DNA of 64,000 bases from Streptomyces celluloflavus (GTDB taxonomy: Bacteria; Actinomycetota; Actinomycetes; Streptomycetales; Streptomycetaceae): positions 1 through 64,000 of the forward strand of contig JOEL01000051.1 in assembly GCA_000720995.1 (NCBI GenBank), in the 5' to 3' direction. Made by a program: the position numbers and the translations under genes. Numbering within the stretch: position 1 is the first letter of the stretch; every line of letters begins with the position of its first letter. The notes under the pieces were generated by a model that was not told where the DNA came from, did no database searches, and saw only the letters and a list, made by a program, of their open reading frames with translations. This document shows positions 6,828 through 62,648 of the stretch, piece by piece.

Positions 6828-9080
6828 GTGACAGCAGCATCGGACTCCACTCTTTTCCCGCAGCTCTCCACGGCGACCCAGTTTCCGGCGACGCCGGAGG
6901 GGGCCGACGCGGTGCTCGACGGGCTCGACCCCGAGCAGCGCGAGGTCGCCACGGCGCTGCGCGGTCCGGTGTGTGTGCTGGCCGGCGCCGGCACGGGCAA
7001 GACCCGCGCGATCACGCACCGGATCGCGTACGGCGTGCGCGCCGGGATCCTCCAGCCCTCCAGCGTGCTCGCCGTCACCTTCACCGCCCGCGCGGCCGGC
7101 GAGATGCGCGGCCGGCTGCGCCTGCTCGGCGCGGGCGGTGTGCAGGCGAGGACCTTCCACTCCGCGGCGCTGCGGCAGCTCCAGTTCTTCTGGCCCAAGG
7201 CCGTCGGCGGTGACGTCCCGCGCCTGCTGGAGCGCAAGATCCAGCTCGTCGCCGAGGCCGCCGCCCGCTGCCGCATCCGGCTGGACCGCAACGAGCTGCG
7301 CGACGTCACCGGCGAGATCGAATGGTCCAAGGTCACCCAGACCGTGCCCGCCGACTACCCGGCCGCGATCGTCAAGGCCGGCCGCGAGGCGCCCCGCGAC
7401 CCGGCCGAGATCGGGCAGATCTACAGCACCTACGAACAGCTCAAGCGCGACCGCGGCGCCATCGACTTCGAGGACGTGCTGCTGCTGACCGTCGGTGTGC
7501 TCCAGGACCGGCACGACATCGCCGAGCAGGTCCGCGCGCAGTACCAGCACTTCGTCGTCGACGAGTACCAGGACGTCAGCCCGCTCCAGCAGCGGCTGCT
7601 GGAGCTGTGGCTGGGGGACCGCGACAGCCTGTGCGTGGTCGGCGACGCCAGCCAGACCATCTACAGCTTCACCGGTGCCACCCCCGACCACCTGCTCAAC
7701 TTCCGCACCCGCCATCCGAACGCGACCGTCGTCAAGCTGGTCCGCGATTACCGCTCCACCCCCCAGGTCGTCCACCTCGCCAACGGCCTGCTCGCCCAGG
7801 CCAGGGGCCGCGCCGCCGAGCACCGCCTGGAGCTCGTCTCGCAGCGTGAGGCCGGCGCCGAGCCCGAGTACGTCGAGTACGCCGACGAGCCCGCCGAGGC
7901 CGAGGGCACCGCCCGCCGCATTCGCGACCTCATCGCCTCCGGCGTCCCCGCCAGCGAGATCGCCGTCCTCTTCCGTATCAACGCCCAGTCCGAGGTCTAT
8001 GAACAGGCACTGGCCGACGTCGGCGTCCCCTACCAGCTGCGCGGCGCCGAGCGGTTCTTCGAGCGGCCCGAGGTGCGCGAGGCCGGCATCAAGCTGCGCG
8101 GCGCCGCCCGCTTCGGCGCCAACGACGCCCTGCTCGACGACGCCGTCGATCTGCCGTCCGAGGTGCGGGCGGTGCTCAGCGACATGGGCTGGACCGGTGA
8201 GCCGCCGTCCGGCTCAGGCTCCGCCCGCGACCGCTGGGAGTCCCTGGCAGCCCTGGTGCGGCTCGCGGAGGACTTCGCCAAGGCCCGCCCGGAGGCCACC
8301 CTCGCCGACCTCGTCGCCGAGCTGGACGAGCGCGCCAACGCCCAGCACGCCCCCACGGTCGAGGGTGTGACGCTCGCCTCACTGCACGCCGCCAAGGGCC
8401 TGGAGTGGGACGCCGTCTTCCTGGTCGGTCTCACCGAGGGCATGATGCCGATCACCTACGCCAAGACCGACGAGCAGATCGAGGAGGAACGCCGGCTCCT
8501 CTACGTCGGCGTCACTCGCGCACGGCTGCATCTGGGCCTGTCCTGGTCGCTGGCGCGCTCTCCCGGCGGCCGGGCCTCCCGCCGCGCCAGCCGGTTCCTC
8601 AGCGGCCTGCGGCCCGGCTCCGGGGCATCGGCCGTCCGCCGCCTCCCGGGCGCGGCGGCGGGCGGTGTCGAGCGCGGCGGCGAGGCCGTGGGCGCGGGCC
8701 GCCGCAAGCGCCGCGGCCCGGCCCGCTGCCGGGTCTGCGGCAAGACGCTGACGGACGCGGGCGAGATGAAGCTGATGCGCTGCGAGGACTGCCCCTCGAA
8801 CCTCGACGAAGGGCTCTACGAGCGGCTGCGGGACTGGCGGGCCGAGCAGGCCGGCCGGCTGAGCCAGCCGGCGTTCTGTGTCTTCACCGACAAGACCCTG
8901 ATGGCCATCGCCGAGACGGTGCCGACGACCGCGTCGGAGCTCGCGGGCATCTCGGGCGTGGGCCGCCGCAAGCTCGACCGGTACGGCACCGATGTCCTGG
9001 CACTCTGCGCCGGTGAGGAGCCCGCGGGGGCGCCGCAGGACGGCTCCGGAGACGCTGCGGAAAACTCGTCGGAAAAATAG
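6828..9080 (+). CDS. uvrD2: ATP-dependent DNA helicase UvrD2
   Basis: A 750-residue superfamily 1 helicase from GTG. Walker A GAGTGKT is at residues 53-59, VDEYQDVS (motif II) near residue 245, GDASQTIYSFTGA is motif III, and VTLASLHAAKGLEWD and RRLLYVGVTRA are motifs V and VI. A four-cysteine cluster (CRVCGKT, then CEDCPS) lies near residues 638-662 and an HRDC-like domain ends the protein. This layout matches the actinobacterial UvrD2 class, which unwinds DNA during repair or replication. It is followed by wblC as in mycobacteria; the wblC promoter overlaps its stop codon. Confidence 0.93.
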   Translation: MTAASDSTLFPQLSTATQFPATPEGADAVLDGLDPEQREVATALRGPVCVLAGAGTGKTRAITHRIAYGVRAGILQPSSVLAVTFTARAAGEMRGRLRLLGAGGVQARTFHSAALRQLQFFWPKAVGGDVPRLLERKIQLVAEAAARCRIRLDRNELRDVTGEIEWSKVTQTVPADYPAAIVKAGREAPRDPAEIGQIYSTYEQLKRDRGAIDFEDVLLLTVGVLQDRHDIAEQVRAQYQHFVVDEYQDVSPLQQRLLELWLGDRDSLCVVGDASQTIYSFTGATPDHLLNFRTRHPNATVVKLVRDYRSTPQVVHLANGLLAQARGRAAEHRLELVSQREAGAEPEYVEYADEPAEAEGTARRIRDLIASGVPASEIAVLFRINAQSEVYEQALADVGVPYQLRGAERFFERPEVREAGIKLRGAARFGANDALLDDAVDLPSEVRAVLSDMGWTGEPPSGSGSARDRWESLAALVRLAEDFAKARPEATLADLVAELDERANAQHAPTVEGVTLASLHAAKGLEWDAVFLVGLTEGMMPITYAKTDEQIEEERRLLYVGVTRARLHLGLSWSLARSPGGRASRRASRFLSGLRPGSGASAVRRLPGAAAGGVERGGEAVGAGRRKRRGPARCRVCGKTLTDAGEMKLMRCEDCPSNLDEGLYERLRDWRAEQAGRLSQPAFCVFTDKTLMAIAETVPTTASELAGISGVGRRKLDRYGTDVLALCAGEEPAGAPQDGSGDAAENSSEK

Positions 9081-9111
9081 TTTGCGCGCGCGGAGTACAT
9101 CCCCATAGCCT
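9071..9111 (+). promoter_or_regulatory. Probable WblC-autoregulated promoter
   Basis: An AT-rich block GGAAAAATAG (9071-9080) abuts a -35-like TTGCGC (9082-9087); TAGCCT (9106-9111) follows after 18 nt. WhiB7/WblC-dependent promoters are known for an AT-rich element directly upstream of the -35, contacted by the AT-hook. The element overlaps the uvrD2 stop codon. Predicted start of the long wblC leader lies near 9118. Confidence 0.55.
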
Positions 9112-9223
9112 GCGGGAGCACGGAGACGACGGACCTTCCGAGTTCCGATCGATCCATGCTGTACTTGAACAAGTCTGGAACGGGATTCCCGGTCCACCGA
9201 GACGCCGAGAGGAGGCGAGCCCA

Positions 9224-9550
9224 GTGATCAGCATTATCAAGACCAACAAAATGACCGATCTCTCGGTCGTCGCCACGTGCGCTCTCGGCTCTTCCCTCCT
9301 TGGCACCGGTCTGTCCGGCTCCGGCCACCTGTCCGGTACCGAGGTCGTGCGCCCCGAGCCGTTCGCCGTCCTGGCGATCAACGAGCGCAGCGCGCGACCG
9401 AGTGAGGCACCTGCGGTAGCAGCAGTGGCGGCAGAAGCGAATGCCTTTGCCCGTGCGGCGGCCAATGGCGCCGAATCCCGGAAGCAGTACCAGACGAAGC
9501 ACGCAATGTGGGCCACCCGCGGCCTCGAACCCTGGAGAGATCCAGCCTGA
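9224..9550 (+). CDS. Upstream ORF in the wblC leader
   Basis: A 108-codon frame from GTG with a strong GGAGG sequence 10 nt upstream. The product (MISIIKTNKMTDLSVVATCA...) has a hydrophobic stretch and an alanine-rich middle and resembles no enzyme. whiB7/wblC genes in actinobacteria carry an upstream ORF whose translation controls a downstream terminator (established for the family). Codons 95-105 here encode the RNA segment that can pair with the terminator's left arm, so the frame probably acts as a translation sensor rather than for its product. Confidence 0.7.
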   Translation: MISIIKTNKMTDLSVVATCALGSSLLGTGLSGSGHLSGTEVVRPEPFAVLAINERSARPSEAPAVAAVAAEANAFARAAANGAESRKQYQTKHAMWATRGLEPWRDPA

Positions 9551-9593
9551 TCGGCATGATCAGGTCGGCACCTTCCAGGGCCGCGGAACCCAC
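9508..9593 (+). promoter_or_regulatory. Antiterminator pairing in the wblC leader
   Basis: GTGGG (9508-9512), CCGCGGCC (9517-9524) and CTGGA (9532-9536) are complementary, in register, to CCCAC (9589-9593), GGCCGCGG (9579-9586) and TCCAG (9574-9578). These 18 pairs would use up the left arm of the terminator at 9578-9610, so the two structures exclude each other. The upstream strand lies inside the last codons of the upstream ORF. Confidence 0.6.
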
Positions 9594-9619
9594 ACCGGGA
9601 TCCGCGGCCCTTTTGTTTT
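9578..9619 (+). terminator. Intrinsic terminator (attenuator) in the wblC leader
   Basis: GGGCCGCGGA (9578-9587) pairs perfectly with TCCGCGGCCC (9601-9610), followed by TTTTGTTTT. The site is after the upstream ORF and before wblC, so it should stop most transcripts unless the antiterminator forms. Confidence 0.85.
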
Positions 9620-9670
9620 GCCCAAGCGTCCGGCCACCAGCCGGGCCGAACAGACGAGGAACACACCACA

Positions 9671-10024
9671 GTGCAACTCCAGACGCACGCCCCGTCCGTA
9701 GTGACCGACCTGATCCCTCCGCCCACTCCTCAGGAGAACTCCTTGCTGCCCCTCACCGAGCTCGACAACGAGATCGACCGTCTCGGCGCCGCTGTCCCGT
9801 GCCGTACCTACGACCCCGAGGTCTTCTTCGCCGAGTCCCCGGCCGACGTCGAGTACGCCAAGGCGCTGTGCCAGACCTGTCCCGTCCGTGAGGCATGCCT
9901 CGCCGGGGCCAAGGACCGGCGTGAGCCGTGGGGTGTCTGGGGTGGCGAGCTCTTCGTCCAGGGCGTCGTCGTACCGCGCAAGCGTCCGCGTGGCCGTCCG
10001 CGTAAGAACCCGGTCGCGGCATGA
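9671..10024 (+). CDS. wblC: WhiB-family regulator WblC (WhiB7 orthologue)
   Basis: A 117-residue protein from GTG. Four cysteines (CRTYD, then CQTCPVREAC) ligate the Fe-S cluster; EPWGVWGGE is the G[VI]WGG sigma-contact turn, and RKRPRGRPRK near the C-terminus is the AT-hook that marks the WhiB7/WblC subfamily. It binds the primary sigma factor and activates intrinsic resistance to ribosome-targeting antibiotics (family knowledge). Its position after uvrD2, AT-rich promoter and attenuated leader all match that group. Confidence 0.95.
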   Translation: MQLQTHAPSVVTDLIPPPTPQENSLLPLTELDNEIDRLGAAVPCRTYDPEVFFAESPADVEYAKALCQTCPVREACLAGAKDRREPWGVWGGELFVQGVVVPRKRPRGRPRKNPVAA

Positions 10025-10338
10025 ACACCCCTGGCGCAGGAACGATCGACCGTCCCGTCACACGGGATCCCAAGAAGCAGGACCCCACGATGAACCCCTC
10101 TTTCACCGATACACCCGCCCCCGCGAACTCCGGCGCGATCGAGTCGCGCCAGAACAGGAACCTCGAAATGCAACTCATGCCAGAAGACCTGGCGCGTGCG
10201 CATATGCACGAACGTCTTCAAGAAGCTGAATCGGAACGCAGAGCACATCGGCTCGCCGCCGCGCGGCGTATGCAGCGCCGCGCCGAACGCGCGTCGCTCC
10301 GCGCCCGCCGCGCGCTGGCCATAGCGGTGATGCAGTAA
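10021..10338 (+). CDS. Small basic protein co-transcribed with wblC
   Basis: A 105-residue frame whose ATG overlaps the wblC stop (ATGA). The C-terminal half is a long Arg/Ala/Glu-rich helix (HERLQEAESERRAHRLAAAR...) that could be a coiled coil or bind nucleic acid. A shorter start at 10090 (MNPSFTD) is an alternative and would give 82 residues. I recognise no family. The overlap suggests translation coupled to WblC, hence expression under antibiotic stress. Confidence 0.6.
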   Translation: MNTPGAGTIDRPVTRDPKKQDPTMNPSFTDTPAPANSGAIESRQNRNLEMQLMPEDLARAHMHERLQEAESERRAHRLAAARRMQRRAERASLRARRALAIAVMQ

Positions 10339-23910: not shown

Positions 23911-23984
23911 CGCGGGGTGGAGCAGCTCGGTAGCTCGCTGGGCTCATAACCCAGAGGTCGCAGGTTCAAATCCTGTCCCCGCTA
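23911..23984 (+). tRNA. Initiator tRNA-Met (CAU), copy 1
   Basis: All arms fold as a 74-nt tRNA with anticodon CAT. The anticodon stem CTGGG/CCCAG has the three consecutive G-C pairs of initiators, and position 1 (C) does not pair with position 72 (T). The gene has no encoded CCA. A TACCTT -10-like box lies 13 nt upstream. Confidence 0.95.
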
Positions 23985-26138: not shown

Positions 26139-26212
26139 CGCGGGGTGGAGCAGCTCGGTAGCTCGCTGGGCTCATAACCCAGAGGTCGCAGGTTCAAATC
26201 CTGTCCCCGCTA
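26139..26212 (+). tRNA. Initiator tRNA-Met (CAU), copy 2
   Basis: Identical in sequence to the tRNA at 23911-23984, with the same ACAACGA just upstream and the same flank downstream. Confidence 0.95.
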
Positions 26213-49486: not shown

Positions 49487-49654
49487 GTGGTGCTCTCCCT
49501 CACTCGGCGGGGGCCAGGAGGGGCGGGGCGCGACGGGCGCACGCGGGCATGCGGCACCCCGATACGGTTCGGGATGCGCGGGCACACCGCGCGGCGTCCA
49601 CCGGCCCAACCCGCGAGGCCCGGACGTATCGACACCCGCACCGATGGCGGCGCG

Positions 49655-49790
49655 GACGTACCGTCGGCAGGTCCTCGGACTCACGGGCGCGCGAAGGGGC
49701 CGAATGGCCATATATGCGCGCTCATACACCGTTGCGGGACAGTTCCGGATTCCCACCGGATTTCCCTGCGGCGACAGCGAGGACGAGCAT
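49655..49790 (-). ncRNA. Cobalamin riboswitch upstream of nrdAB
   Basis: On the minus strand the segments GGGAAATCCGGTGGGAATCC and GAACTGTCCCGCAACGGTG are followed by GAGTCCGAGGACCTGCCG (49682-49665). The last is the B12 box; the others are the conserved core. In S. coelicolor a B12 riboswitch shuts off class I nrdAB so that the B12-dependent class II enzyme is used. The ends are approximate. The downstream ribosome-binding site is about 165 nt away. Confidence 0.9.
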
Positions 49791-49832
49791 ACATGTGGGG
49801 GTGGCCCCTCGCGCGCACCCCCACATGTAGTG
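49787..49832 (-). promoter_or_regulatory. Pair of NrdR boxes
   Basis: CACTACATGTGGGG (minus strand, 49832-49819) and CCCCACATGTATGC (49800-49787) share the ACATGT core with centres 32 bp apart, three helical turns. NrdR represses ribonucleotide reductase genes through such paired boxes. ACATGTGGGGGTG and CACCCCCACATGT also form a 13-bp inverted repeat at 49791-49828. Confidence 0.65.
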
Positions 49833-62415: not shown

Positions 62416-62648
62416 AACACCCGCGGGCCGCGGCGCCAGGACAGGACCCTCAACCTGTCCGGCACCGCAGCCCGGAGCTGACATCGGCCGGCCCCGTTGC
62501 CGGACGGGGGGTGCCCCGATGTGCGGTAGGGGCACGGTCCCCGTCCCGGGACCGGTCGATCGGAGGCCGCGGCGCAGTCAGGGCAGAGAGCGCCTCGGAC
62601 CTCGTTCCGCTCTCCTGTGCGGGGAGAGCGGAGGTCTGTGCCCAGCAT

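Follow-up and report, generated by a model that had tools for sequence, protein, structure and literature searches.

In attenuators of the trp type, the position of the ribosome in a leader ORF picks between a terminator and an antiterminator. An attenuator of whiB7/wblC that depends on an upstream ORF (uORF) has reportedly been described by Lee, Lee and Roe in 2022 (Mol Microbiol 117:179), in work done in S. coelicolor. According to passages of PMC7157823 and PMC11550727, the intrinsic resistance of actinomycetes to many antibiotics that target the ribosome is under the control of WblC/WhiB7, and a passage of PMC12421871 presents WblC as regulated by ribosome-mediated attenuation. For mycobacteria, a passage of PMC10727445 cites Poulton et al. 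for a response of WhiB7 to alanine starvation. The locus analyzed here, in Streptomyces celluloflavus, is very probably the wblC (whiB7) transcription attenuator, in which translation of the uORF would choose between terminator and antiterminator. An earlier note on this DNA had drawn the analogy to whiB7/wblC elsewhere, and correctly so, as passages of PMC10727445, PMC11550727 and PMC9618640 give a uORF/terminator/antiterminator switch for whiB7/wblC or, in PMC9618640, for whiB7; Burian and Thompson 2018 is cited for it alongside Lee et al. 2022. The switch type is already known for wblC in relatives, and the reading given here is a correct reading of this known switch.

The locus lies within a 64-kb stretch of DNA, referred to as the window, of the 8.68-Mb S. 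celluloflavus genome. The leader comes after a UvrD-like helicase gene (6828-9080) and precedes the gene which we take to be wblC, a name based on similarity to related loci. In a WblC similarity search, which returned at least 585 related loci, the nearest relatives at this locus were found in Streptomyces. Eighty of these loci, from Streptomyces and near genera, were kept and form, together with the window, the Streptomyces set of 81 leaders, in all of which the end of the uORF and the terminator are present. The class-wide set comprises 40 loci with upstream DNA (6 from the order and 34 from the class) and the window, giving 41 leaders. The features of the locus, all on the forward strand, are the following.

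9073-9111, + strand: candidate wblC promoter, with an AT-rich box AAAAATAG, TTTGCG (-35, 9081-9086) and TAGCCT (-10, 9106-9111), recognized by conservation
9210-9215, + strand: Shine-Dalgarno sequence AGGAGG of the uORF, in a stretch (9200-9218) conserved at 90% identity or more across 81 regions
9224-9550, + strand: uORF of 108 codons, GTG start, Ala-rich, from the open reading frame list, with equivalents in 81/81 leaders
9507-9537, + strand: upstream strand of the antiterminator, in codons 95-105 of the uORF, from MFE pairs and covariation
9532-9545, + strand: local hairpin CUGGA-GAGA-UCCAG, a competitor of the inner antiterminator pairing, in 78/81 leaders and predicted by folding
9545-9565, + strand: hairpin within the loop of the antiterminator, spanning the stop codon of the uORF (9548-9550), stem 9545-9552/9558-9565, predicted by folding
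9573-9594, + strand: downstream antiterminator strand, which overlaps with the left arm of the terminator, from MFE pairs
9578-9619, + strand: intrinsic terminator, stem 9578-9587/9601-9610 with 3 inner pairs, T tract 9611-9619, folding energy -28.4 kcal/mol
9671-10024, + strand: wblC, WhiB-like transcription factor of 117 aa, GTG start, PF02467 at E 7.6e-16

With regard to the uORF, equivalents of 88-118 codons were found in all 81 leaders of the Streptomyces set, the search having been restricted to lengths between 80 and 140 codons. The uORF of the window contains 21 Ala in its 108 codons, and across the 81 leaders the Ala fraction reaches 0.30-0.46 in the bins located 20-50 codons before the stop. 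The best Shine-Dalgarno site scored 6/6 in 80/81 leaders, a score by which the starts had themselves been picked. A CGCC/GGCG inverted repeat (9203-9206 with 9214-9217) overlaps the Shine-Dalgarno sequence and could partly hide it. Upstream, the region 9073-9111 is the probable wblC promoter, judging from conservation: when the 81 upstream regions were aligned, the blocks 9073-9087 and 9102-9108 both showed 90% identity to the window or more, position by position. The AT-rich box ahead of the -35 element is a candidate for the WhiB7/WblC site, which is an AT-rich box in this position. A consensus sigma-70 scan of the region returned no promoter. A further conserved block, TGCTGTACT, lies at 9157-9165, between the promoter and the uORF. 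At the other end of the locus, a 105-aa ORF (10021-10338, +) overlaps the wblC stop codon (ATGA) and is present in 80/80 related loci; it matched no Pfam or NCBIfam family at E 0.001 and probably represents a conserved gene whose translation is coupled to that of wblC.

The coordinates that the earlier note had given for the terminator, the uORF and the alternative structure hold on the sequence. The alternative structure had been read as 18 pairs between 9508-9536 and 9574-9593 (GUGGG 9508-9512 with CCCAC 9589-9593, CCGCGG 9517-9522 with CCGCGG 9581-9586, and CCCUGGA 9530-9536 with UCCAGGG 9574-9580), and folding of 9494-9596, which ends before the right arm of the terminator, gave a minimum free energy (MFE) structure that is almost exactly this antiterminator. 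The MFE structure has 20 pairs in these arms (9507-9512/9589-9594, 9517-9524/9579-9586 and 9532-9537/9573-9578), that is, two extra pairs and a slightly shifted inner register. The pairing coordinates bear out that the antiterminator shares the left arm of the terminator (9578-9610), so that the two structures exclude each other, and the upstream strand 9508-9536 does lie within codons 95-105 of the 108. The link of the switch to wblC, which the earlier note had also asserted, was likewise confirmed. The duplex of 9507-9536 with 9574-9594 amounts to -31.5 kcal/mol, a value reached by 33 of 63,806 other 30-nt windows (64 kb, both strands, step 2). For 9450-9550, the observed value of -32.6 was reached by 0/1000 dinucleotide shuffles. 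The observation of a terminator with an alternative fold is thus confirmed as real; the earlier reading holds for the sequence and, very probably, for the mechanism as well.

The terminator, which is of the Rho-independent type, is located between the uORF and wblC, and its stem is followed by the T tract TTTTGTTTT (9611-9619). Its core, GGCCG[CT]G...CGGCC, is found in 41/41 class-wide leaders, including the window. A stricter scan that also requires a T-rich tail lists 36/41 of them and misses L122, L130, L136, L145 and L150, all of which are recovered with the looser core pattern. A consensus terminator scan did not list the terminator of the window at 9578-9619, which we attribute to the loop limit of 8 in that scan, as a 1x1 mismatch splits the stem here.

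When the right arm of the terminator was barred from pairing, the antiterminator formed in 81/81 leaders of the Streptomyces set and in 39/41 class-wide leaders; when it was free, the terminator was present in the MFE structure of 81/81 and 38/41, respectively. For RNA that includes the right arm, the terminator state was calculated at -62.7 versus -55.8 for the forced antiterminator. As stability favors the terminator, antitermination must, under the model, be kinetic rather than an equilibrium outcome, and the upstream strand would have to be the first to seize the left arm and then keep it. In free RNA of increasing length, the antiterminator core is predicted to prevail with 3' ends up to 9602, to be roughly balanced by the terminator at 9606 and to have disappeared at 9610. 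The effect of a ribosome was approximated by masking in an equilibrium model. Masking 9515-9545 removed the core and inner pairing, with the outer pairs remaining, and masking 9533-9563, which corresponds to a ribosome at the stop codon, removed the inner pairs only, with the core and outer pairs still forming. As each mask leaves some pairs in place, blocking would call for ribosomes standing a little farther upstream, for queued ribosomes or for a kinetic effect. We infer that it fits best with ribosomes passing codons 95-105, or queued behind a terminating ribosome, at the time the left arm appears.

Taken with the folds, the following course of events is proposed. RNA polymerase would probably start near 9118 and transcribe the uORF. 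When the uORF is translated to its end, ribosomes would cover 9508-9536 during synthesis of the terminator, the terminator hairpin would form and transcription would stop before wblC. When ribosomes are stalled or missing, be it through ribosome-targeting drugs or through amino-acid shortage, possibly of alanine, 9508-9536 would be left free and could capture the emerging 9573-9594 before the right arm exists, and polymerase would read into wblC. WblC would then activate its own promoter. The Ala-rich stretch of the uORF would fit the alanine-starvation response of WhiB7 in mycobacteria.

The earlier note had made covariation among relatives decisive for its reading, and covariation was present. 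It was assessed in A2, a MAFFT alignment made from sequence only, of 20 of the 40 class-wide loci, chosen by eye for one layout and containing neither the window nor its genus. In A2, 22 double-changed cells were still paired versus 8.0 in shuffles, a number reached by 0/500 of them. The fraction of paired cells (77.6% versus 72.4% shuffled) and the score (0.188 versus 0.118) were likewise each reached by 0/500 shuffles, and sliding the partners by one column lowered the pairing to 47%. Counted by pairs instead of cells, double changes were unexceptional (7 versus 5.2, reached by 74/500 shuffles), and some positions of A2 pair poorly, for example columns 10/84 with 5/19 cells. Another alignment, A1, of 61 class-wide leaders, was set aside, the upstream strands of Streptomyces and of the other genera being out of register in it. 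Changes of pair type can also be followed in the class-wide folds, at offset -2 (G-C 20, C-G 8, U-A 6 and G-U 1; 35/41) and at offset 9 (U-A 12, G-C 9, G-U 6 and A-U 2; 29/41), although these counts lean towards pairing, as the partners come from the individual fold of each leader, made without the right arm. The counts in A2 and the permutation of strands, which are less biased, agree with them. Over the 41 loci, the native pairs of strands had a mean of -28.5 kcal/mol versus -24.5 kcal/mol for permuted pairs (z -8.7; 0/20,000 permutations). At 12 of the 41 loci (L122, L124, L126, L129, L130, L135, L145, L148, L151, L152, L156 and L161), at least half of the swapped pairs did no worse than the native one, whether in a single direction or in both, and the evidence from swapping therefore belongs to the set and not to each locus.

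A covariance model, R1, was built from a seed taken outside the genus, with neither the window nor any Streptomyces in it. In this genome it found one strong site, 9515-9622 (E 1.1e-11), the next best match being at 0.17. A WblC-like match is present in 147/147 genomes of the order and in 259/296 sampled genomes of the class. R1 sites were found in 178 of these 296 class genomes, as a single match in 166 and with second matches in 12; seed loci match by construction. The remaining 118/296 gave no match under strict filters, and 37 of the 296 are also without a WblC match. The R1 site adjoined a WblC match on the same strand in 72/72 cases checked, namely the first 52 listed, which were inspected by eye, and 20 picked ones, at which the downstream WblC relative, on the same strand, showed 45-71% identity. 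In one family (f6), only 4/24 genomes with a WblC match had an R1 match, so the switch fold has been lost, has diverged or was missed there. At one locus (L180), a switch at E 7.4e-14 precedes a WblC relative that is weaker than in relatives (genome-level best E 2.5e-13; 47% over 77 aa). No Rfam 15 family scored above its gathering score at 9050-9700 (best E 0.1, 21.6 bits versus 94.9). Other RNA matches in the window include the Streptomyces sRNA scr5239 (RF02605, 102.7 bits, 62433-62634, -), a cobalamin riboswitch that is barely above its gathering score (49649-49794, -; 31.8 versus 31.5 bits), and two tRNA genes of equal scores about 2.2 kb apart (23911-23984 and 26139-26212, +).

Could the terminator be an ordinary one, to which the upstream strand is complementary only by chance, because the peptide end (W-A-x-R-G-x-E-P-W) is conserved and the G+C content is high? 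Synonymous recodings of the uORF end speak partly in favor of this. The total folding energy of the cut leader gave no signal against them: 144/300 recodings of the window were as stable, in 0/75 leaders was the observed value reached by 0/300 recodings, and the mean z was +0.34. Nor did the core and outer helices alone show an excess (median ranks 71 and 99 of 200), the recodings of 75 leaders still pairing these parts with means of 0.80 and 0.87. The inner pairing, however, is far above that of the recodings, with a probability of 0.885 versus 0.355. The joint probability of core and inner pairing was reached by 6/200 recodings for the window and by a median of 0/200 over 75 distinct leaders, and was below 0.5 in 8/75 leaders. 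The class-wide covariation also argues against an accident, as does the fact that the peptide end varies in other genera, where the helix is mostly kept. We therefore consider an ordinary terminator very improbable.

The same holds, to the same degree, for the proposal that the uORF end is an arrest peptide that stalls the ribosome itself, with the RNA pairing being secondary. In its favor, R99 (81/81), G100 (78), P103 (79), W104 (81) and P107 (80) are near-fixed in the 81 Streptomyces-set leaders, and codons 105-107 are rare ones. The codon choice at the uORF end is itself nearly uniform, with GCC in 81/81, CGC or CGT in 81/81 and CGG in none, CCC for 78/79 Pro at 103, AGT for 57/58 Ser and AGA for 23/23 Arg at 105, GAT for 74/75 Asp at 106 and CCA for 80/80 Pro at 107, counts which, the 81 leaders being related by descent, are not independent events. 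Among the 10,908 codons of 23 long, unannotated ORFs that were picked from the window by composition, CGG accounts for 0.37 of Arg, CCG for 0.60 of Pro and GAC for 0.90 of Asp, versus 0.10 for GAT, 0.024 for CCA, 0.054 for AGT and 0.007 for AGA. A stall at the very end would, however, cover the antiterminator strand and favor termination, which is the wrong direction for induction. Across the class, moreover, the C-terminus differs: many loci have R-[TA]-W-[SRG]-P-P-V and several others are without the tryptophan motif, yet the helix pairing mostly persists. Selection seems to have held the RNA pairing rather than the peptide. The least probable alternative, to which we give hardly any weight, is that the untranslated leader is controlled by Rho or by an RNase instead of by an intrinsic-terminator switch. 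Against it stand the strong intrinsic terminator with its T tract in the window, the presence of the core in 41/41 leaders class-wide and the arm shared with the uORF strand. A uORF-dependent switch between terminator and antiterminator is the reading that we retain.

Two additional hairpins accompany this switch. The first, at 9532-9545, corresponds to a motif CTGGA-4 nt-TCCA found in 78/81 leaders of the Streptomyces set, with the loops GUGA (51), GAGA (21), GUUA (4), GCGA (1) and GUCA (1). Its predicted probability is 1.0 with the 3' end at 9565, 0.0 at 9580 and 0.80 at 9625, with the terminator; it is thus predicted to form first, to be displaced once 9574-9578 emerges and to return with the terminator. 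The second hairpin covers the uORF stop codon, all three bases of which are paired in 78/81 local folds; in A2, where it is helix 2, both sides are changed in 3/7 pairs. These structures suggest a tentative extension, which we consider possible but somewhat doubtful: the Streptomyces switch may have a third selected element, the 9532-9545 hairpin (codons 104-108, where the synonymous codons used are rare ones in the long ORFs of the window), which would form first and hold the inner strand, so that 9573-9578 could capture that strand only by displacement. This element and the stop-codon hairpin, which is conserved more widely, might jointly set the threshold or the timing, for example by making the polymerase pause, and alanine shortage could become an input by way of the Ala-rich stretch farther upstream.

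When compared with known systems, the closest counterpart is the whiB7/wblC attenuator itself, which, as described in passages of PMC10727445, PMC11550727 and PMC9618640, shares the gene, the uORF, the Rho-independent terminator and an antiterminator that overlaps uORF and terminator sequence. The same passages make no mention of the stop-codon hairpin, of the 9532-9545 hairpin or of class-wide covariation. The likeness is drawn from descriptions in citing papers. Our literature search, in a collection with few subscription journals, found no published covariation analysis of the whiB7 uORF leader. The present analysis contributes the covariation across the class, the argument from kinetics and the two additional hairpins. 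The covariation provides independent, sequence-based support for the published switch and establishes which register the pairing takes in this strain, and the R1 model could found an RNA family, Rfam 15 having returned none here.

Trp-type attenuators resemble the wblC leader in that the position of the ribosome in a leader ORF decides the fold. They differ in that the wblC antiterminator strand lies inside a long uORF of 108 codons and in that a general failure of translation would be sensed, albeit with an Ala-rich stretch in the uORF. The attenuators of ARE-ABCF genes (are5sc, tiaA and others) are also similar, as antibiotic-blocked translation of a uORF is proposed, in a passage of PMC12421871, to flip a terminator into an anti-terminator. 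In contrast to the wblC leader, the uORFs described in that passage comprise only a few codons, the stall occurs at the start codon, and the gene under control encodes a resistance ABCF protein rather than a transcription factor.
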